DNA of 64,000 bases from assembly GCF_009192765.1 (NCBI RefSeq), contig NZ_VOHQ01000002.1, positions 1 through 64,000 of the forward strand, given 5' to 3'. The translations under genes were made by a program, and so were the position numbers. Each line of letters begins with the position of its first letter. Position 1 is the first letter of the stretch. Shown piece after piece: positions 24,285 through 41,769 of this stretch. Below the pieces are notes generated by a model. That model had not been told where the DNA came from and ran no database searches. It worked only from the letters and a program-made list of their open reading frames with translations. Source of the stretch: Agriterribacter humi (GTDB lineage Bacteria; Bacteroidota; Bacteroidia; Chitinophagales; Chitinophagaceae).

Positions 24285-27146
24285 TCAATTCAACAAATCC
24301 CTTATGTTTTCCATATCCGCTTCTACAACCGGATCGAATTTTTCACTTGTCATATATTTTTTCAAACTGTATAACAATTGTCTTGCCTCAGGTCTTTTAT
24401 CCGCGCCGGTTAGCAAATCAATGCCCGAAACGATCAGCTTGCCTTTACCAGCTTTGCATTCAAATATCAATCCTAAAGGCTGCGCCGTTACCCAATCATC
24501 AATTACACGAACGATGGGTTTAATACCGGGAGCAACAGCATCAAGGCTTATTGGATTGGAATGGCTCATCGCATCCCACCATTGCCAGTTACTGTGATAT
24601 TCCGTAGGGAAAGCCTGTAGTGCCGGATGTTGCGGATTACATAAAATTCCCAGGGTAGTGGGCGCCTGCCCGCCTGTCCACGCGGTATTCCAGAATATGC
24701 TGGAAAAACCAATTTTTACATTGCCTCCTTTACCTGGCTTTACCGATCCTTTTTTAGTGGTAAGCAATACTTTTCCGCCGGCATTAAGGGTTTCTATTGC
24801 TTTGTCATCCAATTGCTGCGTTATCAAAATTTCATCTTTTGTTGCGGGAAGCGATGACGGATAAACAAATATATGCCATGCGTTGTGGTTGTTATTTACA
24901 GACACAGTGAGGGTAAGCATTTCTGCCTGCTTTACGGCATGGAGAGACTGTTTAATTTCACCCAGCTTAAAACCGTTCCCCAGAGGAATATTTACTTTTG
25001 GCAATTTGCCGCTGAACAGTGTTGCACCCGAAGCATTGGTAATATTCCATACCGGCGTAACATCGTGTAACGCAGATGCTCCAAAATGAGCGACCTCTGC
25101 AGGCACAGAGAGTATTTCATTATTCAGGTAGATCATTTTCGGTAACCTTACCAAAGGAACGGTTGCATTGCAAAACCGGCTGTATTGCGCTCCGGTAACA
25201 TAACCTTTATCATCCCAAAAGGGATCCAATACCCCAACCAGCGCTGTTCCCTGCCCCGGAAAATCGTGCAGGTCAAGAAGCTGAAAGCCCCCAAAACCGG
25301 GTGTGCGCAACGCGGCTTCTATATCGGCTTTATAGCATAATACCTGTAGTTTTCCGGATGCCAAAAGAAAACTGTCGGCCAAAGCCCCCATTCCATTTTT
25401 GTTTAGTTTTTCCTGGAATATTTCAAAATTTTTAGCTTTTAAAACGCCGTCATATTTGGATATTTCTTTAAAATTGGGATAAACGCACCACTGCCCGATT
25501 TCATGACTAACAGTGGGATGCTGCCACTTTGAAATAATTTCTTTCCAGTCGTAATCGCATCCTGGCGTCTGTGCATTAATTATGCTTTTCAATCCTTCGC
25601 CCCAACGCTGGATTCTTGGGTCGGGCGTGCTGTTATAATCGTTTTCCGGAATTACAGGCCACCCTGCACCTGAAGTATACAATATCCTGGGGTCTTTCTT
25701 TTTCCAGTAGGTAACAAAATCCGTTAAATATTTTACCTGCTGCTTTCCTGCAGGTTCATTGCCGTAAGTCATCATGCAAAATGAGGGATGATTACCGTAG
25801 GCCTTAACCACTCTTTTGCTTTCATCATAAATATATTTATCAAGCGGTTTGCCATCGCCGATAGTTGCTCCCTGGTTTGCCCATGAGCTGATTTCTACCT
25901 GCAGGTAAAAGCCCGAACGGTCTGCCGCTTCAAAGGCAGCTTCAGGAGGAGTCCAGGAATGAAAACGTATATGATTGAGTCCATATGATCTGCAAACTTT
26001 AAAAATATGTAACCAGGCTTCCACATCTGTTGGCGGGTAACCCGTTTTAGGAAAAATGGCACATTCAAGGGTGCCTCTCAAAAAAGTTAAATTACCATTA
26101 ATGGTAAATTGCGTGCCTTTCGTTAAAAATTCCCGCATGCCAAATGTTACTGTTCTTTCATCACGTTCTTTTGGTGTAGTTAAATTGATCTGCATGGCAT
26201 ACAGGTTCGGATGAAATTCATCCCACAGCAGCGGAGCATTTCCCATCGGGTAAATGATTTCAAGTGCCGTATCGCCACCTTTTAGGATAACCTTCTTTTG
26301 AATGAGTTTCAATTTTTCGGATTTGGTATTTTCGGATGTTACCCTGAGTTGAATGCCGGCCTCAACCTGTTTGTTTGCCGGGTTGTTGATTTTTATTTTG
26401 GCCTTCACCAGCTTGTTTTTGATATCCGGATACAATTGTACATTCTCCAAATGAAGCAGCGGGTCTGATACAAGAAGCAATTTGCCAATCATACCATTCC
26501 AGTTGCTTTGCGTATGATCGGTAATGCTGTGTGAATTTGGACCTACATTAATGTCTTTAACGCGGTTGTCAACACGGATTGTTAACAGGTGCGTGCCCGG
26601 ACGTAATGATTCGGATAAATCAAAGCGATGCGGCGTTCCCAAACTGTTGTTCATTCCTGTTTGCACACCGTCAATCCATAGGGTAGTTTCCCAATGGCTG
26701 CGTTCTATAAACAGTTCAATGTATTTGTTTTTCCACGACTCCGGAATGGTAACTGTTTTTTGATACCACGCAGCGCCTTTATAGTATTTAACGGGCTGCA
26801 GCCAGAAGGGAATTTTAATATTGCCGGGCTTGCGATATACAGCGTACTCCGGTTTTAAGAACCACGAGGAGTCCATAATGCTTCCGGTCCAGGGAGTATT
26901 CACATCAATGTCGTTGCCCTTCTTATTGGTGGTCATAGATCCGGGAAGCAGTACACTATCCGTGAGTTTTTTGTTAAACCAGCGTTCATGTGTACCCTCA
27001 TCAAGCGAATCAATACGGAAAAGCCATTGCCCCGAAAGATCAATGGTATTTTTTGCTGAATAGTTTACTTCCTGGGCGCGTAATGTTGTAAAGGCTGTAA
27101 ATAACAGATAAAATATTGACATTACCAATAGCACATATTTTTTCAT
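24285..27146 (-). CDS. Glycoside hydrolase family 2 protein, secreted
   Basis: The 953-residue protein has a signal peptide (to about residue 24). A sugar-binding jelly-roll domain (IDLSGQWLFRID and HWETTLWIDG) is followed by an Ig-like domain and a TIM barrel. The acid/base is Glu464 in MTYGNEPAG and the probable nucleophile is Glu549 in VSHEIGQW. GH2 enzymes remove beta-linked galactose, mannose or glucuronic acid in the retaining mode; which one is not clear here. Its promoter carries a variant of the AraC-regulon box in reverse orientation, which links it to the SusC/D cluster next door. Confidence 0.9.
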   Translation of the reverse strand: MKKYVLLVMSIFYLLFTAFTTLRAQEVNYSAKNTIDLSGQWLFRIDSLDEGTHERWFNKKLTDSVLLPGSMTTNKKGNDIDVNTPWTGSIMDSSWFLKPEYAVYRKPGNIKIPFWLQPVKYYKGAAWYQKTVTIPESWKNKYIELFIERSHWETTLWIDGVQTGMNNSLGTPHRFDLSESLRPGTHLLTIRVDNRVKDINVGPNSHSITDHTQSNWNGMIGKLLLVSDPLLHLENVQLYPDIKNKLVKAKIKINNPANKQVEAGIQLRVTSENTKSEKLKLIQKKVILKGGDTALEIIYPMGNAPLLWDEFHPNLYAMQINLTTPKERDERTVTFGMREFLTKGTQFTINGNLTFLRGTLECAIFPKTGYPPTDVEAWLHIFKVCRSYGLNHIRFHSWTPPEAAFEAADRSGFYLQVEISSWANQGATIGDGKPLDKYIYDESKRVVKAYGNHPSFCMMTYGNEPAGKQQVKYLTDFVTYWKKKDPRILYTSGAGWPVIPENDYNSTPDPRIQRWGEGLKSIINAQTPGCDYDWKEIISKWQHPTVSHEIGQWCVYPNFKEISKYDGVLKAKNFEIFQEKLNKNGMGALADSFLLASGKLQVLCYKADIEAALRTPGFGGFQLLDLHDFPGQGTALVGVLDPFWDDKGYVTGAQYSRFCNATVPLVRLPKMIYLNNEILSVPAEVAHFGASALHDVTPVWNITNASGATLFSGKLPKVNIPLGNGFKLGEIKQSLHAVKQAEMLTLTVSVNNNHNAWHIFVYPSSLPATKDEILITQQLDDKAIETLNAGGKVLLTTKKGSVKPGKGGNVKIGFSSIFWNTAWTGGQAPTTLGILCNPQHPALQAFPTEYHSNWQWWDAMSHSNPISLDAVAPGIKPIVRVIDDWVTAQPLGLIFECKAGKGKLIVSGIDLLTGADKRPEARQLLYSLKKYMTSEKFDPVVEADMENIRDLLN

Positions 27147-27191
27147 TACCGGGGAATTTTTTGGATAAAAAATTATTGCCTGCTAATTATT

Positions 27192-27250
27192 CGAATTTCA
27201 GGCTTAATGATCATTATTCAAATGAACATTCTTACGAAAATGATGTACTA
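27192..27250 (-). promoter_or_regulatory. Predicted AraC-regulon promoter of the GH2 gene
   Basis: Read on the minus strand, a box resembling the regulon motif (TACATCATTTTCG, from 27,247) is followed exactly 48 bp later by a -7-like element GAAATTCG (27,199-27,192). The spacing equals that of the three better copies at 28,226, 33,116 and 41,599. This is the weakest of the four. Confidence 0.55.
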
Positions 27251-27281
27251 TTTGTTGATTGATTAAAAGTATTGCGGAAAA

Positions 27282-28196
27282 TCAATCTTTTGGATTGTAG
27301 TAAACATGCTCACTATTTCTCTTTTCCCTGTACGCATTAGGCGACATACCCATCAGCTTTGTAAAAAAGCGTGAAAAATAATACGGATCTTCTATCCCCA
27401 CGCGGGTGGCTATTTCCTTTATTCTTAAATTGGTAAACATCAGGAACTGGCAGGCTTGCTGTACTTTAAGGTGATTAAAATATTCCATTGGCGGGTAGCC
27501 TGTCTTTTTTTTGAAAAGAAAGGAAAAATGCGAGGGAGACATGCTTACTTCATCCGCCATCTGTTGGAGGGTGCACATGGAATCAATATTTTTTTTCATG
27601 AAGTCAATCACAATGTCCATTTCAGTGAGAGTGCTGACAGAATTAAATTTTTCGGCGTGCATAAAGGAGCCCAGAAAATGATAAAAACACAAATTGGCAT
27701 ACAGCATATTTTCGATGCTGTAGCCTCTTTCCAGTTGATGGTAAATGGTATTAAACAATTCTGTGCGCTGTTCATTGTAATGCAAAAAACTTTTGTGCCC
27801 GTCAAACTGCTCCAGCATATGGGTTATAATGGCATCTGAAATGGCTCCGGTAAAATGAATCCAGTAAATAGTCCATGGATCTTTTTCATTTGCGGCATAG
27901 TAATGCTCCGTTTGTTTTGGAACAACAAAGAAATCTCCGGGTTCAATATCATACTGCTCCTTTTTTATGGTTACGCTTCCTTTGCCTTCTATGCAATAAA
28001 TAAGAATATGCTGTTCGGCGCCACGTAACCGCTCACGGTAGTGAAACCGGGCTTTTGGGTAATAGCCGATATCGGTTATATATAGCCCTGATATAATGGT
28101 ATTATTTGTGCAATTTGATGCCAGCACTTTCCGGGGAATTACAACTGCTTTTTGTCCCTGGAATCCTTCCTTTTTTTTAATAATTGTTGCCGGCAT
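27282..28196 (-). CDS. AraC family transcriptional regulator
   Basis: The 304-residue protein has an N-terminal cupin-type sensor region (HILIYCIEGKGSVTIKKE, IEPGDFFVVPKQTEHYYA). The C-terminal double helix-turn-helix includes CTLQQMADEVSMSPSHFSF and IKEIATRVGIEDPYYFSRFF, ending in MSPNAYR. It most likely binds a sugar and activates transcription. The gene is divergent from the MFS sugar porter. The shared upstream box at 28,217-28,256 lies in the gap between them, and more copies precede GH2, SusC and the PSCyt gene, which makes this protein the obvious candidate to bind them. Confidence 0.92.
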   Translation of the reverse strand: MPATIIKKKEGFQGQKAVVIPRKVLASNCTNNTIISGLYITDIGYYPKARFHYRERLRGAEQHILIYCIEGKGSVTIKKEQYDIEPGDFFVVPKQTEHYYAANEKDPWTIYWIHFTGAISDAIITHMLEQFDGHKSFLHYNEQRTELFNTIYHQLERGYSIENMLYANLCFYHFLGSFMHAEKFNSVSTLTEMDIVIDFMKKNIDSMCTLQQMADEVSMSPSHFSFLFKKKTGYPPMEYFNHLKVQQACQFLMFTNLRIKEIATRVGIEDPYYFSRFFTKLMGMSPNAYREKRNSEHVYYNPKD

Positions 28197-28216
28197 GCAG
28201 GTAAATTTTGCTAAAA

Positions 28217-28281
28217 GTAAAAAAATCCATCATTATCCAAGTTTTTTACATTGAACTTATGTAAACACAATGGGATATTTG
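28217..28281 (+). promoter_or_regulatory. Predicted AraC-regulon promoter of the MFS porter
   Basis: The box TCCATCATTATCCA begins at 28,226, preceded by GTAAAAAAA. TTG (28,251-28,253) is a -33 element and GATATTTG (28,274-28,281) a -7 element, with 20 bp between. The layout is the same as at 41,590. A start at TTG 28,251 for the porter would fall inside this promoter. Confidence 0.75.
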
Positions 28282-28316
28282 TTGTACATATATTTGGAGA
28301 AACACTTTTGTATAAA

Positions 28317-29660
28317 ATGCTTAAACTTTTACCACCTCATCAATTTAATACAGGATATATTGTTGGCATTTCATTTATCTCTGCTTTGGGTGGTTATCTC
28401 TTTGGGTTTGATTTTGCTGTTATTGCCGGCGCTTTGCCCTTTTTGCAAAAGCAATTTGGTTTGGATGCCTATTGGGAAGGTTTTGTAACGGGTAGTCTTG
28501 CATTAGGGGCCATTGCAGGCTGTTTGTTTGCCGGAAAAATATCCGATAAGTATGGAAGAAAAGCAGGGCTGCTCTTAGCTGCCTTTGTTTTTGCTGTATC
28601 ATCGCTGGCCATGGCATTTGCCCCTGGCCGCAACTTTTTTATAATAGCCCGTTTTTCCGCTGGTATTGGAGTAGGCATGACTTCTATGCTTTCACCCATG
28701 TACATTGCCGAAATTGCGCCGGCGCAATGGCGGGGCAGGCTGGTTGCAATTAATCAGCTTACTATAGTGCTGGGAATACTGGTTACCAACCTGGTTAATT
28801 ATTTATTGAGTAATAGTGGTGATGATGCCTGGAGGTGGATGTTTGGTTTAGGAGCTGTTCCTTCTGTTTTGTTTTTAACCGGCATTTTTATTTTACCCGA
28901 GAGCCCGCGGTGGCTGGTGCAAAACAATAAAGCCACCAGGGCACTTGATGTTTTACATAAAATAGGCGATAGCCGCTTTGCTGAAAGCGCTGTTATCAGT
29001 ATTCAGCAATCATTAAAGGGTGTAACTAAAATAAACTACAGCGCAGCTTTGAATAAAGCTTTTCTTCCCGCCGTTTTAATTGGCATAGGGCTGGCAGTAT
29101 TTCAGCAGTTGTGTGGAATCAATACGGTATTTAATTATGCTCCAAAGCTGTTTGAAAGCATTGGTGCTTCGCAGGATGATCAATTAAAGCAAACCGTTTT
29201 TATTGGTGGTGTAAATCTTGTATTTACATTGCTGTCTATGCTCCTGGTAGATAAGCTGGGCCGAAAGCCTTTAATGCTGTTTGGCGCGGGAGGGCTTGCC
29301 ATATTATATATTATAGTTGCCCAAATGCTTGCTTCAGGTTCATCGTATGTTGCGTGGTTTTTGCTGGCGGCTATTGGCACTTATGCCATGTCGTTAGCCC
29401 CCGTTACCTGGGTACTGATCTCTGAAATATTTCCCAATAAAGTAAGAGTTGCAGCCACGTCCATTGCCGTAATTTGCCTGTGGGCAGCTTATTTTATACT
29501 GGTATTTACCTTTCCTGTACTGTATGAAAAATTCAGGGATTCTACTTTTTATTTTTATTCTGCTGTTTGTATCCTGGGTTTCCTGTTTATATGGAAAAAG
29601 GTAAACGAAACAAAGGGCAAAACGCTGGAAGAAATGGATGCTGTTGCGGGAGGACATTGA
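28317..29660 (+). CDS. MFS sugar porter
   Basis: The protein is a 12-helix major facilitator of the sugar porter family, about 447 residues from the ATG at 28,317. This start is preferred over a TTG 66 bp upstream, since the upstream stretch overlaps the predicted promoter. Family signatures seen are GGYLFGFDFAVIAGALPFL, DKYGRKAGLL, PESPRWL, and QQLCGINTVFNYAP in helix 7, with DKLGRKPLML between the halves. It should import a mono- or small oligosaccharide by proton symport through the inner membrane. The next gene starts 39 bp downstream and is probably co-transcribed. Confidence 0.93.
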   Translation: MLKLLPPHQFNTGYIVGISFISALGGYLFGFDFAVIAGALPFLQKQFGLDAYWEGFVTGSLALGAIAGCLFAGKISDKYGRKAGLLLAAFVFAVSSLAMAFAPGRNFFIIARFSAGIGVGMTSMLSPMYIAEIAPAQWRGRLVAINQLTIVLGILVTNLVNYLLSNSGDDAWRWMFGLGAVPSVLFLTGIFILPESPRWLVQNNKATRALDVLHKIGDSRFAESAVISIQQSLKGVTKINYSAALNKAFLPAVLIGIGLAVFQQLCGINTVFNYAPKLFESIGASQDDQLKQTVFIGGVNLVFTLLSMLLVDKLGRKPLMLFGAGGLAILYIIVAQMLASGSSYVAWFLLAAIGTYAMSLAPVTWVLISEIFPNKVRVAATSIAVICLWAAYFILVFTFPVLYEKFRDSTFYFYSAVCILGFLFIWKKVNETKGKTLEEMDAVAGGH

Positions 29661-29683
29661 TCCTGTTTCTTGCAGTAAGACAA

Positions 29684-29702
29684 TTAAAAATCCATCATTA
29701 TG
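29684..29702 (+). repeat. Partial copy of the regulon box before the DUF5107 gene
   Basis: AAAAATCCATCATTA sits directly at the start codon of the gene at 29,700. It repeats 15 bases of the AraC-regulon box, but the second TCCA and the -7 element at +48 are missing, so it is unlikely to be a working promoter. Confidence 0.5.
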
Positions 29703-32700
29703 AGTAATGAGGTAAAAGCATGGGAGGAAATGGTGATCATTCCTACTTATACAACCGGGGAGCCTGATAAAAATCCCATGTTCCTGGAAAAGCGTGTATA
29801 CCAGGGCAGCAGTGGTGCAGTATACCCGCATCCGGTTATTGACCGTGTAGCCGATGAAAAAACAGATGTAGCATATAAGGCCTTATTCATTGAAAATGAG
29901 TTTCTGAAAATTATGATCTTGCCGGCGATGGGCGGGCGGCTCCAGATGGCTTATGATAAGACCAATGATTATCATTTTGTATATTATAACAGGGTTATAA
30001 AGCCTGCACTGGTGGGACTTACAGGTCCGTGGATATCCGGAGGCATAGAGCTTAATTGGCCGCAGCATCATCGCCCCAGCACTTTTGATCCTGTAGATTA
30101 TGCTATAGAAACGCATACGGACGGGAGTAAAACAGTGTGGGTAAGCGAGATAGAAAAAATGTTTCACACCAAAGGAATGGCGGGCTTCCGGTTATATCCT
30201 GGCAAAGCATACATTGAAATTACCGGCAGGTTGTACAACCGCACAGTATTGCCTCAAACATTTTTGTGGTGGGCTAACCCGGCGGTGGCGGCAGATGAGC
30301 ATTATCAGTCCATATTTCCTCCCGATGTGCATGCTGTATACGATCATGGCAAAAGAGATGTGTCTTCTTTCCCCATTGCCACGGGTACTTATTATAAAGT
30401 AGATTATTCGCCCGGTACGGATATTTCCATGTATAAAAATATTCCGGTGCCAACTTCTTACATGGCGGTTAATTCGGAATTTGATTTTGTGGGTGGTTAT
30501 CATCATGGTAAAAAGGCCGGTTTATTGCATGTGGCCAATCATCATATTTCGCCCGGGAAAAAACAATGGACCTGGGGTTGTGGTGATTTTGGTAAGGCCT
30601 GGAACAGGCACCTGACAGATGAAGACGGGCCTTACCTCGAAATAATGACGGGCATGTTTACCGATAACCAACCGGATTTTGGCTGGATAATGCCCAATGA
30701 AGAAAGAACATTCACGCAATATTTTCTTCCTTATAAAGCAGTGGGCAATGTAAAAAATGCAACTAAAGATGCCCTGATAAATCTTGAAGTGAAAGATCAT
30801 AAGGCGGTATTGAAAGTATATCTTTCTTCTTCCCGGAACAATGTAAGGATACTGCTCTCATTGGGTGATGTGATTCTTTTTGAAACAACGGACAGCTTAT
30901 CACCTGTAAGAACTTTTGAAAAAAGTATTGATTTGCCCGGCGCCTATTTACTTCAGCAATTGAAAGCCATTGTAAAAAGCGAAACCGGCCAAATGCTGGT
31001 AAGTTATGTGCCTGTTGTGGGCAATGATGGTGTTGCTGTTCCCGATGCTGCTAAACCTTTACAGGATCCGGCCGATATAGAAACAAATGAGGCATTGTAT
31101 ATGGCGGGGTTGCACCTGGAACAGTACCGCCATGCAACCTGCTCACCTGTTCGTTATTACGAAGAAGCATTGCGGAGAGATGGATCAGATATCAGAAATA
31201 ACAATGCGCTTGGTCTTTGGTATTTCCGCAGGGGACAGTTTGCGAAAGCAGAACCTTATTTCCGGAGTGCGGTAACATCTCTGCTTGTGCACAATCCCAA
31301 TCCTTATGATGGGGAACCATTGTATAATCTCGGATTAAGTTTTTTGTACCAGGACAAAAAGAAAGAAGCATACGAAAGTTTTTTTAAAAGTTGCTGGAAT
31401 GCCGCCTGGCAGGACAATGGCTACCTGCAACTGGCAAGGATGGAAATGGCTCAAAATAATACAGAGCAGAGCTTTTTGTTTGTTGAAAAGTCATTGGCGC
31501 GCAACCATCACGGATTTAAATCGCGGCACCTCAAAGCCATGTTGTTCCGGTATATGAACAGGCTGGAAGAGGCAAAATTATTTGCGATGGAAACTTTGCA
31601 GATGGATGCTTTTGATTTTGGTTCATCTTATGAATATTTTCTTATACTGCGTTTGCAACAATGTACACAGGAGGCCAATCTGCAACTTGCGCAATTAAAG
31701 CAGAGGCTTCGCAATGAGGCGCATACTTTTATTGAAATAGCCATTGATTATGCATGGTGTGGCAGGTACAGGGAGGCTATCGCTTTTTTATTATTGGATG
31801 ATCGCACAACACAGCATCCGTTGAACGCGTATTATATCTCTTATTACTATTTTTTATCGGCTGATCATAATGAGGCGAAACGATGGGCCGATAAAGGATT
31901 TGCTCAAAGTTCCAATCGTGTATTTCCTAACCGGCTGGAAGATATCGCTGTGCTGAAGTATATTTCGCAGCTCAATCCCGCAGACTATAAGGCTTTGTAC
32001 TATCTCGGAAATTTATGGTACGATAAAAGACAATACAGCGAAGCGATAGATTGCTGGGAAAGATCATATCACGTATATGATGGTTTTGCTTCCGTTATGC
32101 GCAACCTCGGCATTGCCTGCTACAACCGGCTTCACCAGGGAGAAAAAGCATTGCAATATTTTGAAAAAGCGTTTTTCGCAGATACTTCAGACGCGAGGGT
32201 GTTATTTGAACTGGATCAATTATATAAGGCCCTAAACTATAACGTGAAGAGGCGTCTTGATTTTTTAAAGCAATATGCTCCGTTGGTATTGCAAAGAGAT
32301 GATCTTTACCTTGAACTGGTAACCCTTTATAATGTATGTGGGGAATATGAAGAAGCCATGCATTTCCTGGCAAACAGGAAGTTCCATCCGTGGGAAGGCG
32401 GAGAAGGTAAAGTAACCGGGCAGTATGTGCAGGCAAAAATGGGACTGGCCAAAAAATCCATAGCCAACCGGCAGTACAATGATGCAATAAGACTTTTGGA
32501 AGAAGCCTGTGCATATCCTGTAAATTTAGGCGAAGGTAAATTGCCCGGCACACAGGAAAATGACATTCTTTACTGGTTAGGAACAGCATATGAATATTTG
32601 AATGATAAAAAAACTGCTGAGGATTATTGGTTGCAGGCATCTGTTGGAATAGCCGAACCTGCCGCTGCAATATATTATAACGACCCACAGCCGGATACAA

Positions 32701-33035
32701 TATTTTACCAGGGATTGTCCTTATTAAAATTGAAGCGGGCAAAGGAAGCGCATGCAAGATTCGGCAATTTAATAGCGTATGGCCAACAGCATATGGATGA
32801 CAATGTGAAAATGGATTACTTCGCTGTTTCATTTCCCGGTTTGATGATACTGGATGATGATTTAAATAAACGCAACCGCGTTCATTGCCATTATGTAATG
32901 GCATTGGGTTATACCGGACTGGGAGAAGTAGAAAAAGCTGCCTGGCATTTTAATGCAATCAGTGATATGGATATCAGTCATCAGGGAACTCATGTACACG
33001 CTGATATAAAAGGAAAGCGTATCCTCCACCCGTAA
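29700..33035 (+). CDS. DUF5107 domain protein with TPR region
   Basis: At 1,111 residues this large protein has no signal peptide. Its first 350-380 residues match the DUF5107 type, probably a galactose-mutarotase-like beta-sandwich (ENEFLKIMILPAMGGRLQ, GGIELNWPQHHRPS, WGCGDFGKAWNRHL). The remainder is a long array of TPR-like repeats (for example YEEALRRDGSDIRNNNALGL and YYLGNLWYDKRQYSEAIDCW). It follows the MFS sugar porter and shares its transcript. Context and fold suggest a cytoplasmic enzyme or binding protein acting on the imported glycoside. The activity is not known to me. Confidence 0.82.
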   Translation: MSNEVKAWEEMVIIPTYTTGEPDKNPMFLEKRVYQGSSGAVYPHPVIDRVADEKTDVAYKALFIENEFLKIMILPAMGGRLQMAYDKTNDYHFVYYNRVIKPALVGLTGPWISGGIELNWPQHHRPSTFDPVDYAIETHTDGSKTVWVSEIEKMFHTKGMAGFRLYPGKAYIEITGRLYNRTVLPQTFLWWANPAVAADEHYQSIFPPDVHAVYDHGKRDVSSFPIATGTYYKVDYSPGTDISMYKNIPVPTSYMAVNSEFDFVGGYHHGKKAGLLHVANHHISPGKKQWTWGCGDFGKAWNRHLTDEDGPYLEIMTGMFTDNQPDFGWIMPNEERTFTQYFLPYKAVGNVKNATKDALINLEVKDHKAVLKVYLSSSRNNVRILLSLGDVILFETTDSLSPVRTFEKSIDLPGAYLLQQLKAIVKSETGQMLVSYVPVVGNDGVAVPDAAKPLQDPADIETNEALYMAGLHLEQYRHATCSPVRYYEEALRRDGSDIRNNNALGLWYFRRGQFAKAEPYFRSAVTSLLVHNPNPYDGEPLYNLGLSFLYQDKKKEAYESFFKSCWNAAWQDNGYLQLARMEMAQNNTEQSFLFVEKSLARNHHGFKSRHLKAMLFRYMNRLEEAKLFAMETLQMDAFDFGSSYEYFLILRLQQCTQEANLQLAQLKQRLRNEAHTFIEIAIDYAWCGRYREAIAFLLLDDRTTQHPLNAYYISYYYFLSADHNEAKRWADKGFAQSSNRVFPNRLEDIAVLKYISQLNPADYKALYYLGNLWYDKRQYSEAIDCWERSYHVYDGFASVMRNLGIACYNRLHQGEKALQYFEKAFFADTSDARVLFELDQLYKALNYNVKRRLDFLKQYAPLVLQRDDLYLELVTLYNVCGEYEEAMHFLANRKFHPWEGGEGKVTGQYVQAKMGLAKKSIANRQYNDAIRLLEEACAYPVNLGEGKLPGTQENDILYWLGTAYEYLNDKKTAEDYWLQASVGIAEPAAAIYYNDPQPDTIFYQGLSLLKLKRAKEAHARFGNLIAYGQQHMDDNVKMDYFAVSFPGLMILDDDLNKRNRVHCHYVMALGYTGLGEVEKAAWHFNAISDMDISHQGTHVHADIKGKRILHP

Positions 33036-33106
33036 AGGATACCTGTTTGACGCAAAGAGAATGGTACTGGTTTATCAGGTATTATCAATCATTTCACACA
33101 AAATCC

Positions 33107-33171
33107 GTAAAAAAATCCATCATATTCCATGCTAAGTCCATGTCCTTCCTTTACTGTGTGTTATAATTTTG
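33107..33171 (+). promoter_or_regulatory. Predicted AraC-regulon promoter of susC
   Basis: GTAAAAAAA then TCCATCATATTCCA from 33,116, with a further TCCA at 33,137, shows TCCA units about 10-11 bp apart on one face of the helix. The -7 element TAATTTTG (33,164-33,171) is a perfect TAnnTTTG and lies 48 bp after the box start. The -33 TTG is replaced by TGT, which fits an activator-dependent promoter. Confidence 0.8.
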
Positions 33172-33223
33172 ATGGAGCATTATAATTTATTTATATACTT
33201 TTTCAAAACGTAAAACTGCCAGT

Positions 33224-36200
33224 ATGAATGATTGCTTTGCCAGCTTGCCGCACAATGTTTATTGTGTTTGCAAAAATGTATTTCATTCCCTCTCTCATAA
33301 ATTGTTTGCAGTATTTATTTTTTCATTTATTACCACACAAACTTTTTCGCAATCAGCTATTCCTGTAAAAGGTGTAGTTTCCGACGAAAAAGGTGTTCCA
33401 TTATCGGGTGTTACTATTACTGTTAAAGGAAGCGAAGCAAACGCGGTAAGTGGTGCTGATGGAAGGTTCAGCCTCAATGCTCCGAATAAAAGGGCAGTGC
33501 TGATTTTTAGCTATGTGGGGCACCAGGTGCAGGAAATTACGGTTGGAGACAAAACGGATTTTAATATTACGCTTATTGCCGGCGAAAACCAGTTAGAGCA
33601 GGTAGTGGTAGTGGGATACGGTACGCAAAAACGCGCATCTGTTACGGCTGCTGTGGCTACTATCCAGGGGAGCGATATAGCTGCCAAGCCTGTGGCTAAC
33701 CTGAGTAATAGTATCGGCGGCAGGGTAGCGGGTGTAATATTTACACAAAACGCGGGCGAGCCAGGCTATGATGGCGCCAACCTGTTAATAAGAGGAAGAA
33801 GCACAACAGGCAACACCCAGCCATTGGTGATAGTGGATGGTGTACCCCGTAGTTTTAATCAATTGGATCCGAACAGTATTGCCTCTTTAACTATTCTGAA
33901 GGATGCAGCAGCGGTAGCGCCATACGGTATGGCAGGCGCCAATGGCGTAATATTGATTACTACTAAAAGAGGTAAAAGCGGCGCGCCAACGCTTGAATAC
34001 AGTGGTTATGTAGGATGGCAGAATCCTACCCGCCTCACAAAATTTGTAAATGCCTCAGAATACGCAACCATGCGTAATATTGCCAACGCCAATGTAGGTA
34101 GTCCTGCCGTATATACCGAAGAGGAATTGCAGAAATTCAAAGATGGCTCGGATCCTGATCTTTACCCCAATCACAATGTATTAAAAGAATTAATTACTCC
34201 CAATGCCATTATAACAGGACACAATCTTTCTTTGTCGGGCGGAACCGACAAACTCCGTTATTACGGAGGATTAGGTTACCTGAACCAGAAAGGGATGTGG
34301 GGACCTACGAATTATAAAAGATACAACTTAGTGTCCAATATTGAAGCGCAGGCAACAGCCACCACAAAAGTTTCACTATCGCTGAACGGGCGTGTGGAAG
34401 ACCGCAATTTTCCGGGGGTGAGTGCGGGCAGTATTTTTTACCAGGCCTTTCGCACACCGCCTACCGCGCCTTTAACTTTCAGTAATGGTTTGCCGGGTTC
34501 CTATATCGGCAGGTCGGCTTACGGCAATATTTTTAACAGCGGTTATACCAATACGGTAGGTTATGTGCTGCTCAGCCAGTTCTCTATAGAACAGCAGCTT
34601 CCTTTTATTAAAGGGCTTAGTGTAAAGGCCGCTGTTAGTTACGATATGAATGAGCCGGGTGGCAGCGATCCTGCCATAACATTAAGCAAAACCTGGCGTA
34701 CTCCAATACCATATTATACGGTAAATGCAACAACACAGCCTTATACCTATACCCTGGCAGGGAATGACGGTCCTGCCAAACCGGTTTACTCTGTATCATA
34801 CTTCCAGAACCAGGCATTTACTTACCAGGGTTACCTGAATTATAATAATGATTTTGGTAAACATGGCGTAACCGCTATGGTAGTGCTTGAGGCAAGGAAC
34901 AGTAAGTTTACTTCATTAGGTGCATCGAGAAGTAATTTTAATGTAAATGTTCCTGAATTGAATAATGGCAGTTTTAATGCTACAGATATCAGTAACAACG
35001 GCTTTTCCGGACAAACCAAACAGCAATCCGCTATATTCAGGGTTACTTATGCTTACAATAGCAAATATCTTTTTGAAGCATCGGGCAGGTACGACGGGCA
35101 TTACGCTTTTGGACCCGGTCACCGGTATGGTTTCTTCCCTGCAGTGTCGGCAGGATGGCGTTTATCTGAAGAAGATTTTATACGCCAGAACCTGGAGTGG
35201 GTTGATAATTTAAAATTGCGTGCATCATATGGCGAATCCGGTGCACTGCCCTATATTGGCGGTAATCTTGCCGCTTTTCAGTACTTAAGCGCATATAGTT
35301 TGTATGGCAACTCCGCAGTAATTAATGGCTCGGGAACACAGGGACTTAATGAAACATTGGAAGCCAATCCCAATATTACCTGGGAAAGAGCCCGCAAAAC
35401 AAACATAGGTTTAGACCTCTCCATATTGAATGGTTTATTTACACTGGAGGCAGATTACTTTTTTGAAAAGAGAAATAATATGCTGGTGGCGCCAAATGCT
35501 ATTCTTCCGGGTGAATATGGCATAGGGCTGGCGCAGGAAAATGCAGCTATAATGAGCAACCGCGGATTTGAATTTACAGCCGGTACGCGTTATAGCCCCG
35601 CAAAAGATTTAACATTAGGGCTAACAGCTAATTTTACGCTGGCAAAAAACAAGTTGCTTCAAATCTTTGAAGATGATGCTACTTTCAATAACCCGAACCG
35701 GAAACTAACAGGCAGGGCATTGGGAACGCAATTTGGTTACCAGGCAACCGGGTATTTCCAGGTGAGTGATGATAAAGACGGCGATGGAATCATTCAGTCT
35801 TCGGAATACCCCGTAACACAGTTTGGTACTTTACACCCGGGGGATTTGAAGTATTTAGATGTAAATGGCGACAACCAGATTTCTCCTGATGATTATATGC
35901 CTATTGGCAAACCTTCCACCCCGCAAATTATTTATGGTTTTGCACCCACAATTAATTATAAAAGTTTCGATCTGAGCCTGCTCTTCCAGGGAGCGGCTGC
36001 AAGAGATTTTTATATAGCTGCAGAAGCAGCTTTCCCCTTTGTAAATTCTGCATCCGCTGTTAGGGAAACGCTGGATTACTGGACACCTGAAAATCCAAAT
36101 GCGCGTAATCCGCGTGTAACCCCGCAACCTACTGATAATAATCAACGGGGATCATCCTGGTGGATCAATAAGGGATCTTACCTCAGATTAAAAACAGGAG

Positions 36201-36391
36201 AACTGGGCTATACACTGCCTGCTGCCATATTAAAAGGCATCAAAATACAGGCTGCACGTTTTTATTTGTCGGGGCAAAATATTCTTACCTGGAGCAAGAT
36301 TAAAAATTTTGATCCCGAGATCAGCTCAACCAGCGGGCAGTATTATCCACAGCAAAGAGTAGTATCTGTAGGTTTAAATGTAACATTCTAA
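33224..36391 (+). CDS. SusC/RagA family TonB-linked outer membrane transporter
   Basis: The 1,055-residue protein starts with a long signal region (to about residue 43). A carboxypeptidase-D-like repeat domain follows (VKGVVSDEKGVPLSGVTITV), then the plug (VVVVGYGTQKRASVTAAV, LIVDGVPRSF-like and LKDAAAVAPYGMAGANGVIL) and a 22-strand-type beta barrel that ends in an aromatic residue (VGLNVTF). With SusD it forms the outer membrane glycan importer powered by TonB. It starts 20 bp before susD and is driven by the predicted regulon promoter. The ligand is unknown, probably the substrate of the nearby GH2 enzyme. Confidence 0.96.
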   Translation: MNDCFASLPHNVYCVCKNVFHSLSHKLFAVFIFSFITTQTFSQSAIPVKGVVSDEKGVPLSGVTITVKGSEANAVSGADGRFSLNAPNKRAVLIFSYVGHQVQEITVGDKTDFNITLIAGENQLEQVVVVGYGTQKRASVTAAVATIQGSDIAAKPVANLSNSIGGRVAGVIFTQNAGEPGYDGANLLIRGRSTTGNTQPLVIVDGVPRSFNQLDPNSIASLTILKDAAAVAPYGMAGANGVILITTKRGKSGAPTLEYSGYVGWQNPTRLTKFVNASEYATMRNIANANVGSPAVYTEEELQKFKDGSDPDLYPNHNVLKELITPNAIITGHNLSLSGGTDKLRYYGGLGYLNQKGMWGPTNYKRYNLVSNIEAQATATTKVSLSLNGRVEDRNFPGVSAGSIFYQAFRTPPTAPLTFSNGLPGSYIGRSAYGNIFNSGYTNTVGYVLLSQFSIEQQLPFIKGLSVKAAVSYDMNEPGGSDPAITLSKTWRTPIPYYTVNATTQPYTYTLAGNDGPAKPVYSVSYFQNQAFTYQGYLNYNNDFGKHGVTAMVVLEARNSKFTSLGASRSNFNVNVPELNNGSFNATDISNNGFSGQTKQQSAIFRVTYAYNSKYLFEASGRYDGHYAFGPGHRYGFFPAVSAGWRLSEEDFIRQNLEWVDNLKLRASYGESGALPYIGGNLAAFQYLSAYSLYGNSAVINGSGTQGLNETLEANPNITWERARKTNIGLDLSILNGLFTLEADYFFEKRNNMLVAPNAILPGEYGIGLAQENAAIMSNRGFEFTAGTRYSPAKDLTLGLTANFTLAKNKLLQIFEDDATFNNPNRKLTGRALGTQFGYQATGYFQVSDDKDGDGIIQSSEYPVTQFGTLHPGDLKYLDVNGDNQISPDDYMPIGKPSTPQIIYGFAPTINYKSFDLSLLFQGAAARDFYIAAEAAFPFVNSASAVRETLDYWTPENPNARNPRVTPQPTDNNQRGSSWWINKGSYLRLKTGELGYTLPAAILKGIKIQAARFYLSGQNILTWSKIKNFDPEISSTSGQYYPQQRVVSVGLNVTF

Positions 36392-36410
36392 AAATATCAA
36401 CATTCGCTAT

Positions 36411-38063
36411 ATGATAAAGCAATTTTCTATAAAACAGGTATGCTGCTTCATGTTGTTATTGGGTGCATTATACTCGTGTAATAAAGATAAGGCGATTGAC
36501 GTAGTACCGAGAGACAGGTTTTCCGATGCCACTGTGTGGACTGATAAGGGTGCCAGTGACCTTTTTCTGAATGATATTTATCTTCAGCTTCCCGATGGTA
36601 ATAACTGGTACGACCCGTTTGACAACTGGTCTGATAATGCTATGTGTGGCTTTAGCTGGCCCAGTTCAAGAAACTCTGCCCAGCAGGCTGTATACACGCC
36701 ATCTACCTTAACTTTTGGCGATATAGGCAATTGTTTTGAATGGGGTTCGCGGTATGCCAATATCAGGAAATGTAATGTGTTTATTGAAAAAGTAACCGCA
36801 TCGGAGCTTGATGAGGAGTATAAAAAGCTGAGACTGGCGGAGGCGAGGTTTTTGCGGGCATATTATTATCATCAGTTATGGATGAGCTATGGGGGTGTGC
36901 CGCTCATTACAGAAGTATTGAACAGGGCTGAACAGGGAGATGATATTTTTAAAGCAAGAAATACATTTGACGAAACGCTGAATTTTATTACCAGCGAATG
37001 TGCTGCTGCTTATACCGATCTGCCGGTTTCTCCGGAATCTGGAAGGGCATCAAAAGGAGCTGCCCTGGCCTTAAAGGGCTGGTGCGAATTATTTGCACAT
37101 AAGTACACAGAATCCGCTGCCACAAATAAGCAGATCATGGATGAACTGGGCTATGAATTACACCCGGACTATGCCGAATTTTTTCTTACCAAAGGCAATG
37201 AAAGTAAAGAAAGTATATTTTACAGGGAATACATTCCACGTGTTCGCGGTGGTAAACTGGAAGGATACCTGGGACCTACCTTTACCAAGGATGGAGCTGA
37301 AACAAGCTGGGGAGGCGTTAGTCCTACGCAGGAACTGGTGGACGATTATGCAATGGATAATGGAAAAATAATTTCCGATCCCACTTCTGGGTATAATCCG
37401 CAAGACCCTTATAAGAACAGGGAAAAAAGATTTTATCAATCCATTGTTTATGATAATACATTTTGGTATAACGATATTATTTTAACCCGGCAGGGTGTGG
37501 GAAGTAAAAATGAAATTGATCTGGCAGATAAGGACGATGCGAGCCAGACAGGATATTACATGCGTAAAAGGCTAAGCGATAAAATTACTTTAGGAGCAGA
37601 TAACTGGGATGGTGCAAGCAGCCCGCAGAATTATTCTTATTTCAGGTATGGAGAAATACTGCTGAACTATGCTGAAGCGCAAAATGAAGCAGCAGGGCCG
37701 GATGAATCGGTATACGAAGCAGTAAGAAAAATACGGGACAGAAGTGAGTTGCCTCCCTTGCCCGCAGGGTTGAGCCAGGAAGATATGAGACAGGCCATAC
37801 GAAGGGAAAGAAGAGTGGAGCTTGCCTTTGAAGATAAACGCTGGTGGGACCTGATACGATGGAATATCGCCCATATTAACCTGAATAAACCATTGCATGG
37901 CATATCCATAAAAGAAAGTGGAGGGGTACTTACCTACACGCCAGTGCCTGTTGTTGGGGGCGACAGGAAATTTGATGCTTCTAAAAATTATCTTTTCCCG
38001 GTACCACAAACCATGATAGATAAGAATAAACTGCTTGAACAGAATCCCGGCTATCCGCAATAG
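36411..38063 (+). CDS. SusD/RagB family outer membrane glycan-binding lipoprotein
   Basis: The 550-residue protein has a lipoprotein signal ending at LYSC (Cys about residue 23) and the SusD fold. Helical repeats include RLAEARFLRAYYYHQLWMSY and GAALALKGWCELFAHKYTES. The C-terminal signature includes FRYGEILLNYAEAQNEA and RRERRVELAFEDKRWWDLIR. It caps the SusC barrel at the cell surface and captures the ligand. A terminator follows 90 bp after the stop codon. Confidence 0.96.
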   Translation: MIKQFSIKQVCCFMLLLGALYSCNKDKAIDVVPRDRFSDATVWTDKGASDLFLNDIYLQLPDGNNWYDPFDNWSDNAMCGFSWPSSRNSAQQAVYTPSTLTFGDIGNCFEWGSRYANIRKCNVFIEKVTASELDEEYKKLRLAEARFLRAYYYHQLWMSYGGVPLITEVLNRAEQGDDIFKARNTFDETLNFITSECAAAYTDLPVSPESGRASKGAALALKGWCELFAHKYTESAATNKQIMDELGYELHPDYAEFFLTKGNESKESIFYREYIPRVRGGKLEGYLGPTFTKDGAETSWGGVSPTQELVDDYAMDNGKIISDPTSGYNPQDPYKNREKRFYQSIVYDNTFWYNDIILTRQGVGSKNEIDLADKDDASQTGYYMRKRLSDKITLGADNWDGASSPQNYSYFRYGEILLNYAEAQNEAAGPDESVYEAVRKIRDRSELPPLPAGLSQEDMRQAIRRERRVELAFEDKRWWDLIRWNIAHINLNKPLHGISIKESGGVLTYTPVPVVGGDRKFDASKNYLFPVPQTMIDKNKLLEQNPGYPQ

Positions 38064-38154
38064 TATGTATGAAACTATAATAACCGGTTTGGTGGGGTAA
38101 CAGACAACCGGGCGAAAAGAATATAAAAGCTTTTACCGTTAGTTTTGGAATATA

Positions 38155-38190
38155 AAAATCCTCTGGTTTTCATCAGGGGATTTTATTTTG
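38155..38190 (+). terminator. Rho-independent terminator after susD
   Basis: AAAATCCTCTG (38,155-38,165) pairs with CAGGGGATTTT (38,174-38,184), one G-T pair included, and a T-rich tract follows. It divides susCD from the FG-GAP lipoprotein gene or lowers its expression. Confidence 0.8.
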
Positions 38191-38217
38191 TAAGTTTAAG
38201 CTTAACCAATAATTGAT

Positions 38218-41200
38218 ATGCCCTGTTTATTTTTTTGCAGAGAATTGAAATACACGCTTCTTTTTACAATACTTGGTATAGTATACGGAGGGTGCACAAA
38301 TATGAGCGATAATGCCTCAAAAGAAAAAGCAGGCGCAACCCTTTTTACACTTCTTGATGCAGCTCATACAGGAATTTCCTTTAATGATTCACTCACCGAA
38401 ACGCTTAATACCAATGTATTGATGTACGAATACTTTTATAATGGTGGCGGTGTTGCGGCAGGTGATCTGAATAATGACGGGCTGGATGATATTTATTTTA
38501 CTGCAAATATGATGGACAATCAATTGTACCTGAATAAAGGGAATATGCAGTTTGAGAATATTACAGGACCGGCAGGAGTAGCCGGAAGACCGGGACCATG
38601 GAAAACCGGAACTACTTTCGTGGATATCAATGGCGATAATAAGCTGGACATTTATTTGTGTTATTCAGGTAAGATATCCGCCGAAAAAAGAGTGCCCCAG
38701 CTTTTTATTAACCAGGGAAATGATGAAAATAATATTCCTTATTTTAAGGATGAGGCGGCGCAATACGGGCTCACTGATCCTGCATACAGCAGCCACGTAG
38801 TTTTTTTTGATTACGATAAAGACGGCGACCTGGACCTGCTGCAGTTGAATCATACTCCCAAACCTTTGACTAATCTCGATAATGCCCGTATAGCATCATT
38901 ACTTGAAGAGCAAAGCAATGAAGCCGGTACAAGGCTGTTAAGAAATGACGATGATCATTTTGTAGATGTAACAAAAACATCGGGCATACAAAATACAGTG
39001 TTTAGCTACAACCTTGGAGCAGGTGTGGCCGACATTAATCATGATGGATGGACTGATATTTATATTTCCAATGATTACCTGGTTGCTGACTACCTGTACA
39101 TCAATAATGGGGATGGAACCTTTTCTGATCATTTGGGTAAAAGTATAAGGCATACCTCGCAATTTTCTATGGGTAATGATGTTGCGGATGTTAACAATGA
39201 CGGGCTTGCGGATATATTTACTTTAGATATGCTGCCTGAAGATAACCTTCGTCAAAAATTATTATTTGCACCTGATAATTATGAAGAATTTGATATGATC
39301 GTTCGCTCGGGCCTGCATCACCAGTATATGCGCAATATGCTGCAGTTGAATAATGGAGATGGAACCTTTAGCGAGATCGGCCAGTTGTCGGGGATATCCA
39401 ATACAGACTGGAGCTGGGCGCCACTCTTTGCCGATTATGACAATGACGGATGGAAGGATTTATTCGTTACCAATGGTTATGTACGCGATTACACCAATAT
39501 GGATTTCCTGAAATACATGAGTGGGGTTCTTAAAGACAGACGAGGGGATGTATACAGGCAAAACCTTTTTGACCTGGTAAAACAAATACCTTCATCAAAT
39601 GTGGTGAACTGTATCTTCAGGAATAATGGCGACCGGCCTGCCGGACAGGCAGGCCTTTCATTCAGCAATATGGGTAAACAATGGGGCTTTACTGTTCCCT
39701 CTAATAGTAACGGGGCTGCATATGCAGATCTCGATAGTGATGGCGACCTGGATATTATAGTCAATAATATCAATAAACCCGCTTTTGTATACAGGAATGA
39801 TATTAATGAGCAACAGGAAAATCATTACCTGCAGGTAAAGCTGGAAGGCGACGGCAAAAATACCCTGGGGTTGGGCGCCAAAATAACACTTTACGGCAAT
39901 GGTAGAAAGCAATACCTGGAGCAAATGCCGGCAAGAGGTTTTCAATCATCGGTTTCACCCGTTTTACATTTCGGGTTAGGTAAAGAAGTTACTATTGATT
40001 CACTGCAGGTAAGCTGGTTAAGCGGCAGACAACAATTATTCAGGAATGTTAAGCCAGACCAAATAGTAACGGTTAAAGAAAAAGATGCGGTTGCTGCTGA
40101 TCATCATAGAACAATTCCTGTTCCGCTTTTTGGGGAAGTTAAATCCCCGGTTGCTTACCGGCACATGGAAAATAATATCAACGATTTTAAAAGACAACCA
40201 TTATTAATAAACCCACTTTCTTTTTCGGGACCCTGCCTGGTAAAAGCAGATGTTAATAAGGATGGACTGGAGGATGTATTTGCCGGAGGTGGAAATGGCG
40301 GAACGGCAGCCTTATATATTCAACAAAAAAGTGGTGCGTTTATACTAAAATCCCGGCAGGCTTTTTTAGATGATAAATTATGCGAAGATGCGGATGCCCT
40401 TTTTTTTGATGCCAATGCAGATGGTGCGCCTGATTTGTATGTAGTGAGCGGCGGGTATCATAATTATCTTCCGGAAGATCCTTTACTACAGGACAGGTTA
40501 TATTTAAATGATGGTAATGGCAATTTTACCAAGACACGAAATGCTTTACCTCAAATGTATGTGAGTAAGAGTTGCGCCCGTTCGGCAGATATTAATGGTG
40601 ACGGGTTTGAGGATTTGTTTATTGGGGGTAGGGTAATACCAGGCAGGTATCCTGAAACGCCTGCAAGCTCTATTCTTATTAATGACGGGAAAGGCTACTT
40701 TAGCGACAAAACAAATGAAATAGCGCCTGCTTTACAAAAGGCGGGTATGATAACAGATGCCGCATGGATAGATTTGAATGGCGATAAAAGAATGGACCTG
40801 GTTGTTGTGGGAGAATGGATGCCGGTAAGTATTTATATCAATAACAATGGCAGGCTCGAAAATCAGACAAAAAATTATATAGACAAAGAATACAGCGGAT
40901 GGTGGAATAAAATACTTACAGGCGATTTTAATAAAGATGGTAAACCCGACCTGGTTATAGGTAATATGGGATTAAATACGCAATGCAGGGCAAGTGATGA
41001 TGAACCTGCGGAACTCCTGTATAAGGATTTTGATAATAATGGCTCTGTTGATCCTATACTGTGCTTTTATATACAAAATAAAACATACCCTTATGTTACA
41101 AGAGATGAATTGCTTGGCCAGATAAGTACGATGAGAACCCGGTTTAACGATTATAAAAGTTATGCAGGAGCAACATTGAACGAGATATTTACCGGTGACG

Positions 41201-41589
41201 AAATGAAAGATATGGGTCATCTGCAGGCAAATCATCTGCAAACAAGTTATTTTGAAAGCGCTGCGGATGGAAAGTTTCATATAAAGCCATTACCCTTACA
41301 GGTGCAGTTTTCTCCTGTATATACTATTACTCCTCTCGATTTTAATAAAGATGGAAATGAAGACCTGTTGTTTTGTGGAAATATCAATTTCGCCCGTTTA
41401 CGGTTTGGAAAATACGATGCCAGTTACGGGTTGCTTCTGCAAGGCGATGGTAAAGGTAATTTTACATATATCAATCAGCAGCAATCGGGTTTTCACCTGC
41501 AGGGAGATGTGAGAAGCGTGCTTGGTTTAAATGACATATTATTATTTGGTATCAATCAACAGCAACTAAAAGCGTATAAAAGAAAATAA
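38218..41589 (+). CDS. FG-GAP/VCBS repeat lipoprotein with UnbV/ASPIC domain
   Basis: The 1,123-residue protein has a lipoprotein signal ending at YGGC (Cys about residue 26) and many FG-GAP/VCBS beta-propeller repeats with calcium-loop-like motifs such as DLNNDGLDDIYF, DYDKDGDLDLLQ and DINHDGWTDIYI. An ASPIC/UnbV domain follows at about residues 540-620 (LGLGAKITLYGNGRKQYLEQ), then a second propeller. Such proteins often sit next to SusC/D pairs in Bacteroidota; their role is probably surface glycan or protein binding. At 39,634 a 21 bp palindrome adds RPAGQAG in frame between NNGD and LSFSN, where relatives continue directly. Confidence 0.9.
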   Translation: MPCLFFCRELKYTLLFTILGIVYGGCTNMSDNASKEKAGATLFTLLDAAHTGISFNDSLTETLNTNVLMYEYFYNGGGVAAGDLNNDGLDDIYFTANMMDNQLYLNKGNMQFENITGPAGVAGRPGPWKTGTTFVDINGDNKLDIYLCYSGKISAEKRVPQLFINQGNDENNIPYFKDEAAQYGLTDPAYSSHVVFFDYDKDGDLDLLQLNHTPKPLTNLDNARIASLLEEQSNEAGTRLLRNDDDHFVDVTKTSGIQNTVFSYNLGAGVADINHDGWTDIYISNDYLVADYLYINNGDGTFSDHLGKSIRHTSQFSMGNDVADVNNDGLADIFTLDMLPEDNLRQKLLFAPDNYEEFDMIVRSGLHHQYMRNMLQLNNGDGTFSEIGQLSGISNTDWSWAPLFADYDNDGWKDLFVTNGYVRDYTNMDFLKYMSGVLKDRRGDVYRQNLFDLVKQIPSSNVVNCIFRNNGDRPAGQAGLSFSNMGKQWGFTVPSNSNGAAYADLDSDGDLDIIVNNINKPAFVYRNDINEQQENHYLQVKLEGDGKNTLGLGAKITLYGNGRKQYLEQMPARGFQSSVSPVLHFGLGKEVTIDSLQVSWLSGRQQLFRNVKPDQIVTVKEKDAVAADHHRTIPVPLFGEVKSPVAYRHMENNINDFKRQPLLINPLSFSGPCLVKADVNKDGLEDVFAGGGNGGTAALYIQQKSGAFILKSRQAFLDDKLCEDADALFFDANADGAPDLYVVSGGYHNYLPEDPLLQDRLYLNDGNGNFTKTRNALPQMYVSKSCARSADINGDGFEDLFIGGRVIPGRYPETPASSILINDGKGYFSDKTNEIAPALQKAGMITDAAWIDLNGDKRMDLVVVGEWMPVSIYINNNGRLENQTKNYIDKEYSGWWNKILTGDFNKDGKPDLVIGNMGLNTQCRASDDEPAELLYKDFDNNGSVDPILCFYIQNKTYPYVTRDELLGQISTMRTRFNDYKSYAGATLNEIFTGDEMKDMGHLQANHLQTSYFESAADGKFHIKPLPLQVQFSPVYTITPLDFNKDGNEDLLFCGNINFARLRFGKYDASYGLLLQGDGKGNFTYINQQQSGFHLQGDVRSVLGLNDILLFGINQQQLKAYKRK
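39635..39655. repeat. GC-rich palindromic repeat, copy 3 (in frame inside the FG-GAP gene)
   Basis: Perfect 8 bp arms GGCCTGCC (39,635-39,642) and GGCAGGCC (39,648-39,655) around GGACA. The insert is 21 bp, keeps the frame and codes Arg-Pro-Ala-Gly-Gln-Ala-Gly. Confidence 0.85.
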
Positions 41590-41654
41590 GTAAAAAAATC
41601 CATCATTTTCCAATTATTGTACATTGGACAGCAATCTTTAAAAGAGGAAATTTG
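41590..41654 (+). promoter_or_regulatory. Predicted AraC-regulon promoter of the PSCyt operon
   Basis: GTAAAAAAA precedes TCCATCATTTTCCA (from 41,599). TTG at 41,624-41,626 is the -33 element and GAAATTTG (41,647-41,654) the -7 element, again 48 bp after the box start and 20 bp after TTG. About 40 bp here are nearly identical to the copy at 28,217. Confidence 0.75.
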
Positions 41655-41769
41655 GAATAGTAAATAATGTGGCATTTATTATCAGTCCCTTGTGGAATGG
41701 ATTGATTATTATATATTTCATTTTTTAAATTTCGTACCTTACATTTTATACTGAACGTGTTTTTCCATC

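Follow-up and report, generated by a model that had tools for sequence, protein, structure and literature searches.

One promoter module of fixed geometry and a putative AraC-type regulon of four sugar-cluster units in Agriterribacter humi

Are the four transcription units of a sugar cluster in Agriterribacter humi controlled by one switch, and what would that switch look like? The cluster lies in a stretch of 64,000 nucleotides (NZ_VOHQ01000002.1, positions 1 to 64,000; assembly GCF_009192765.1), which we call the window. An earlier note on this DNA had proposed that three near-identical boxes and a weaker one in reverse orientation place the four units under an AraC-type protein encoded within the cluster. 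All four boxes lie where the note had put them (Table 1). Our comparisons, which are of sequences, support a real AraC-type regulon of these units. What can be seen directly in the letters is a repeat, a fixed spacing, conservation beside the AraC gene and a shared set of target genes. The best explanation for this, and one in which we have considerable confidence, is an AraC-family activator, P0001, that switches the four units through a fixed arrangement of box and −7 promoter element.

Table 1. Genes and predicted promoter modules of the sugar cluster (window coordinates)
Feature	Position	Strand	Remarks
GH2, like exo-beta-1,4-galactosidase BT4151 (below family cut-off)	24285..27146	-	
araC-type regulator P0001, 304 aa	27282..28196	-	Pfam AraC_binding, HTH_18; model and fold matches
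MFS sugar porter	28317..29660	+	
DUF5107-TPR protein	29700..33035	+	
SusC	33224..36391	+	
SusD	36411..38063	+	
FG-GAP / UnbV_ASPIC protein	38218..41589	+	no own box found
PSCyt1-PSCyt2-PSD1 protein, CBM6-like stretch	41770..44532	+	
DUF1501 protein	44539..46050	+	
xylose-isomerase-like TIM barrel protein	46066..47046	+	
PSCyt1 / DUF2231 / LRR protein	47068..48483	+	
Module A	28214..28287	+	box start 28226; profile E 3.2e-5
Module A half-sites	1 about 28216-28231; 2 about 28237-28252	+	
Module A −7 GATATTTG	28274-28281	+	transcript start expected near 28286; MFS-DUF5107 unit (predicted)
Module B	33104..33177	+	box start 33116; profile E 4.6e-8
Module B half-sites	1 about 33106-33121; 2 about 33127-33142	+	
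Module B −7 TAATTTTG	33164-33171	+	transcript start expected near 33176; SusC/SusD unit (predicted)
Module C	41587..41660	+	box start 41599; profile E 2.8e-6
Module C half-sites	1 about 41589-41604; 2 about 41610-41625	+	
Module C −7 GAAATTTG	41647-41654	+	transcript start expected near 41659; PSCyt operon (predicted)
Module D, weaker	27186..27259	-	box start 27247; profile E 0.17, rank 12
Module D half-sites	1 about 27242-27257; 2 about 27221-27236	-	
Module D −7 GAAATTCG	27199-27192	-	transcript start expected near 27187; upstream of GH2

A 23-bp box, GTAAAAAAATCCATCATNNTCCA, occurs without mismatch at 28217-28239, 33107-33129 and 41590-41612, and these are also its only matches in the window if up to three mismatches are allowed (mean of 0.00 in 100 shuffles). 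In the whole genome of 5.69 Mb the same threshold yields three forward matches and none in reverse, all three being the window copies, and the box read backwards as a control has 0 and 0 matches on the two strands. Had the box been common genome-wide without the fixed spacing, the proposal of the earlier note would have failed, but the full box exists at three places only. The short core TCCATCATNNTCCA is not rare by itself. It has six exact copies in the genome, and the three outside the window lack the A-rich stretch and carry only 4, 1 and 2 of the six fixed letters of the −7 consensus TAnnTTTG at +48 from their start.

Of 195 genomes searched, 45 contain a match to P0001 at E<=1e-40; the own genome is among them. 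We took 30 regions around such genes; 29 belong to relatives, and the remaining one is the region of an AraC paralogue in the own genome. Beside many of the relatives' AraC genes there is an A-rich stretch, the sequence TCCATC-N15-TCCATT and a TAnnTTTG-like element at +48 from its start. A matrix built from 18 AraC-adjacent sites, all in other genomes, ranks the four modules at the top of the window, with scores of 27.3 (33116), 26.2 (41599), 18.2 (27247, reverse) and 18.1 (28226); the score falls to −9.3 at the fifth position, and 20 random 64-kb sequences reach 4.8 at most. We also built a profile from sequence only, with 31 sites of 21 other genomes and again none from the own genome. It gives modules B (4.6e-8), C (2.8e-6) and A (3.2e-5) as the top three of the candidates scored in the own genome. 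These E-values are rough, and the scan scored 150 of 3,980 first-look candidates in the own genome and at most 25 in each other genome. At E<=1e-4 the module is found in 32 of the 45 genomes with an AraC match, compared to 2 of the 150 without. When the 21 training genomes are excluded, the figures are 11 of 24 and 2 of 150 (Fisher p 2e-9); the other 13 of the 24 have no module at this threshold, and some of their AraC matches are distant.

A further set of 80 loci came from named records, mostly of Chitinophagaceae (Chitinophaga, Niastella, Terrimonas, Ferruginibacter and others) with a few of Pedobacter and Mucilaginibacter. Leaving out 14 whose contigs, as recognised by length and position, were already in the earlier set, 66 were used, some of which are still close relatives of training genomes; the relatives as a whole are not phylogenetically independent. 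With a matrix of the box only (−12 to +27), we found 72 distinct sites in 58 of these 66 AraC loci, 49 of them directly beside araC. This count enters sites that agree in their first 70 bases only once and disregards those close to the end of a locus. Otherwise there would be 74 sites in 60 loci; the two additional loci are L173, whose box equals the one in L170, and L226. Controls with 20 shuffled-column matrices or the reversed sequence gave 0 sites in 1.27 Mb. No site above the threshold was found in six of the 66 loci (L157, L197, L203, L218, L227 and L228), one of which is only 3.8 kb long. L157, L197 and L218 hold close AraC relatives and have GH2 genes nearby, and their box motif may have drifted. 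The module is distributed over Chitinophagaceae and some Sphingobacteriaceae. Module D, which has three mismatches to the core, scores 20.7 with the box-only matrix; no other window position exceeds 7.8, and all control scores stay below 14.

One could argue that the boxes are alike by chance, because promoters of this genome share a generic style or because a DNA segment was copied recently, given AT-rich intergenic DNA and a short core with six genomic copies. We regard this as extremely improbable: the full box occurs three times genome-wide, the module recurs in 58 of 66 other AraC loci where the controls find none, and the flanks of the modules are unrelated, with pairwise identities of 16-30% at −150 to −13 and +56 to +170. 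The unrelated flanks rule out a segment duplication as the origin of the modules. A generic genome-wide element is ruled out by the genome counts, the profile ranks and the poor match at +48 of the cores outside the window.

What kind of protein would such a box suit? The repeated unit is about AAAATnnTCCATY, present twice as a direct repeat 21 bp apart, which makes GTAAAAAAA, placed ahead of the box by the earlier note, a part of half-site 1. Self-comparison of the aligned sites gives a correlation of 0.69 (31 sites) or 0.64 (72 sites) at a lag of 21 bp, and the second-highest lag correlations are 0.14 and 0.16. Half-sites about 21 bp apart near a promoter are what is expected of AraC/XylS-type direct-repeat sites. 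The TCCA repeat every 10-11 bp that the note had described must be given up. There is no lag peak at 10 or 11 bp; the sole strong one lies at 21 bp.

The spacing between box and promoter is the most telling property of the module. The −7-like octamers of all four modules (Table 1) begin exactly 48 bp past the box start, just as the earlier note had it, and in modules A, B, C and D they match 5, 6, 5 and 4 of the six fixed letters of TAnnTTTG. Among 2,796 intergenic positions at least five letters are matched at 1.4% and at least four at 7.7%. The training sites of the profile were picked partly for a −7 element at +48; hence, we take the evidence on spacing from the box-only scan, in which sites were chosen by the box (−12 to +27) and the −7 element was not used. 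In these independent loci, at least five of the six letters are found at +48 in 59 of the 72 sites and at +47 in 6, so that the check on relatives with this AraC gene places the element at +47 or +48 in 65 of 72. Every other offset from +28 to +71 reaches this level in at most 5 sites, and no good element stands at +47 to +49 in the remaining 7. Positions +28 to +47 of the aligned sites hold little information. Although the genomes share ancestry, the data from relatives lend strong support to a fixed geometry. In Flavobacterium psychrophilum, the −7 element occupies −12 to −5 (excerpts of PMC9723704). If the same is true here, the transcript start would be expected about 60 bp downstream of the box start.

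A separate −33 element, on the other hand, does not seem to be part of this promoter. The earlier note had pointed to a −33 TTG at +25 in two modules. The letters are indeed present, at 28251 and 41624, but not as a conserved element: they lie inside half-site 2 and recur in 11 of the 72 relatives' sites, and we therefore reject the TTG as a promoter element of its own. Neither the 31 nor the 72 aligned sites show a separate conserved TTTG or TTG at −33. Thus, of the two elements of a Bacteroidetes primary-sigma promoter, the −7 TAnnTTTG is found and the −33 TTTG/TTG is not; in F. johnsoniae a −33 motif was likewise not identified (excerpts of PMC7366714).

This layout leads to the core of our explanation. 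We infer that P0001, having sensed a sugar, would bind as a dimer to the direct half-sites 21 bp apart, with half-site 2 covering the region where a −33 element would be. From the first TCCATC it is 48 bp to the start of the −7 element for the Bacteroidetes primary sigma factor, and bound P0001 would replace the −33 element by touching sigma or RNA polymerase (class-II activation). In this way it would switch on GH2, MFS-DUF5107, SusC/D (with ASPIC) and PSCyt-DUF1501-TIM-cytochrome. Alternatively, P0001 could bind the boxes and repress, or both repress and activate, with the spacing serving to occlude the promoter. E. coli AraC both represses and activates. Half-site 2 sits where the −33 element would be, and a protein bound there could also block the polymerase; the araC start codon is just 30 bp away from box A, and binding there could also limit araC itself. 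We nevertheless consider either mode unlikely, as occlusion tolerates variation in distance whereas here the distance is fixed down to the single base pair, and the lack of a separate conserved −33 element is what one expects of an activator-dependent promoter.

A different protein could also act on the boxes. The own genome encodes an AraC paralogue with 40% identity to P0001, near 363 kb of contig C12, and the boxes might mainly be bound by this or another regulator while the neighbouring AraC does not act on them. Four boxes accompany the paralogue in its own cluster, and they repeat the 21-bp and +48 layout. They take ranks 4-7 of the profile in the own genome, all four in this second cluster, which is on the same contig as modules A-C. 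Given similar boxes and the same geometry, cross-binding is possible. As the main account of the boxes, however, we think this quite improbable. Those four boxes differ: most of them have TCTATT together with TCCAGC or TCCAGT. Their A-rich flank is another one, and their profile E-values are 0.0025 to 0.034 versus 4.6e-8 to 3.2e-5 for modules A-C. In relatives the box adjoins the closer orthologue of P0001, with those 49 of 72 sites directly beside it.

The C12 paralogue and its boxes form a second regulon, at about 360-383 kb (L073, L233 of genome G000). Its boxes adjoin genes for SDR, LUD-domain, SusC/D, GH43-, GH95- and GH29-type proteins and an SSF transporter, and five sister genomes retain the paralogue (87-97% identity) together with similar boxes.

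P0001 itself has the features of an AraC/XylS protein: a C-terminal domain with two HTH motifs (HTH_18, 1.8e-21 in Pfam) and an N-terminal cupin-like ligand-binding domain (AraC_binding, 2.5e-15). Its AlphaFold2 model has a mean pLDDT of 89, with helices at 192-296 in the DNA-binding region. The fold matches are the sensor domains of BgaR and E. coli AraC, the DNA-binding domain of AraC (2K9S) and MarA. The BgaR lactose sensor (6NWH, 6NWJ, 6NWO, 6NX3) shares the sensor fold with a TM-score by target length of up to 0.78, a likeness at the level of fold given 15-17% sequence identity. The GH2 enzyme of the window scores 1241.7 bits against the family of the exo-beta-1,4-galactosidase BT4151 (cut-off 1500), and GH36, GH59 and a GH97 like retaining alpha-galactosidase (below cut-off) stand behind boxes in relatives. 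These GH2, GH36, GH59 and GH97 likenesses, together with the BgaR-like sensor, make galactose or a galactoside the most likely inducer.

The regulon that the earlier note had predicted, joining GH2, MFS/DUF5107, SusC/D and PSCyt, agrees well with the gene classes behind the box in relatives. The first gene behind the 72 sites belongs to DUF5107, PSCyt and SusC in 17 cases each, to MFS in 9, to GH2 in 6, to GH97 in 1 and to others in 2, with no ORF found in 3; the SusC and GH2 matches are mostly at the protein-family level (<40% identity) and not close homologues. A box goes with close SusC homologues (59-63%) in L065 and L066, both from training genomes, and in L165. Seen from the side of the homologues in the 66 loci, the box is upstream of 17 of 18 for PSCyt, 17 of 34 for DUF5107 and 9 of 32 for MFS; it is upstream of none of 8 for GH2, 19 for DUF1501, 18 for TIM, 9 for cytochrome, 1 for ASPIC and 65 for araC. 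Among all ORFs of at least 200 aa in the same loci, 64 of 629 have a box upstream. The box of the 18th PSCyt homologue, in L173, is the one dropped as a duplicate.

Gene order tells the same story of shared targets. Four Chitinophaga loci (L156, L166, L194 and L212) have the order araC, box, PSCyt, DUF1501, TIM, cytochrome gene, which is that of the fourth unit of the window. The order in L153 and L165 is araC, box, MFS, DUF5107, GH2; in L165 a box also accompanies SusC/D. Hence, the window combines units that are separate in other lineages. Within the window, the unit of module B probably includes the ASPIC/UnbV gene after SusC/SusD.

GH2 appears to be the weakest and least supported unit of the regulon. 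In favour of module D are its score, its position and the box of one GH2 gene of 63% identity (L086, a training genome). The GH2 homologues of L153 and L165 (32-39% identity) stand behind DUF5107 in the MFS unit. The PSCyt unit has a peculiarity too: its start codon is 171 bp from the box start, compared to 65-79 bp in Chitinophaga relatives. Between module C and this start codon lies a promoter-like TTG-N21-TAAATTTC (41702-41733), and the leader of the unit is about 110 nt long; hence, the unit may have a second promoter.

How does this regulon compare to known ones? The domain order of P0001 is that of E. coli AraC, and the direct repeat is shared. At araI1-I2, E. coli AraC binds a direct repeat whose second half-site lies at the upstream element of the promoter. 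The two proteins differ in that they have about 20% identity over the sensor domain, and P0001 goes with a Bacteroidetes −7 promoter and another motif; no sign of looping is seen for P0001. Closer to home, the AraC groups are said to have unique DNA motifs (excerpts of PMC3870299 and PMC3878776). Rhamnose regulators, including those of Bacteroides, have AraC-type direct-repeat motifs with 21-bp periodicity (excerpts of PMC3870299). RhaR of B. thetaiotaomicron (BT3768) is also an AraC-family regulator of sugar genes with a predicted 21-bp direct-repeat motif but has other target genes, and the fixed distance to the −7 element is a feature of the present box, none being given for the RhaR motif in the excerpts of PMC3870299 and PMC3878776. 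The hybrid-type HTCS proteins of B. thetaiotaomicron likewise control SusC/D loci with an AraC-type DNA-binding domain, and their tandem sites are direct repeats with an average of 21 bp (excerpts of PMC3878776). Unlike these, P0001 has no kinase, receiver or periplasmic sensor; its 304 aa form a one-component regulator whose sensor is cupin-like. Thus AraC-type control through 21-bp direct repeats is already known as a kind, while this regulator, motif and target set appear to be new. We found no description of them in the open-access literature searched, where DUF5107 is named only in a paper on marine stramenopiles.

The most useful new point is probably that a conserved sugar-type regulon ties PSCyt proteins to sugar use. 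The domain set of the PSCyt2-PSD1/DUF1501 type is known from Planctomycetes and Verrucomicrobia, and in 2017 the functions of PSCyt/PSD were called unknown, with carbohydrate-binding modules hinting at carbohydrate metabolism (excerpts of PMC5615132). It is tempting, if rather speculative, to read the PSCyt2-PSD1/DUF1501/TIM/cytochrome operon as a cytochrome-linked oxidation pathway for galactose or galactosides in the envelope. If true, this would be the first function for the PSCyt/PSD domain set. With PSCyt and DUF1501 under one switch with galactosidase-like enzymes and a sugar porter, a growth condition can be chosen, and the predicted regulon is precise enough for experiment, comprising a regulator, a 21-bp repeat, a geometry exact to the base pair and predicted transcript starts.

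Some genes near the modules deserve mention. A GH97 gene without a box lies near the cluster at 52091-54064 and resembles retaining alpha-galactosidase (below cut-off); behind a box in L189 and L083, by contrast, the first gene found is a GH97 relative. Restriction-modification-like genes adjoin the sugar cluster at 18635-24112 (N6_N4 methylase, DUF1016/YhcG nuclease and ResIII helicase). At 8674-16154 a subtilase (S8) gene is followed by two CHAT-TPR genes, a set that possibly serves protease-linked signalling or defence.
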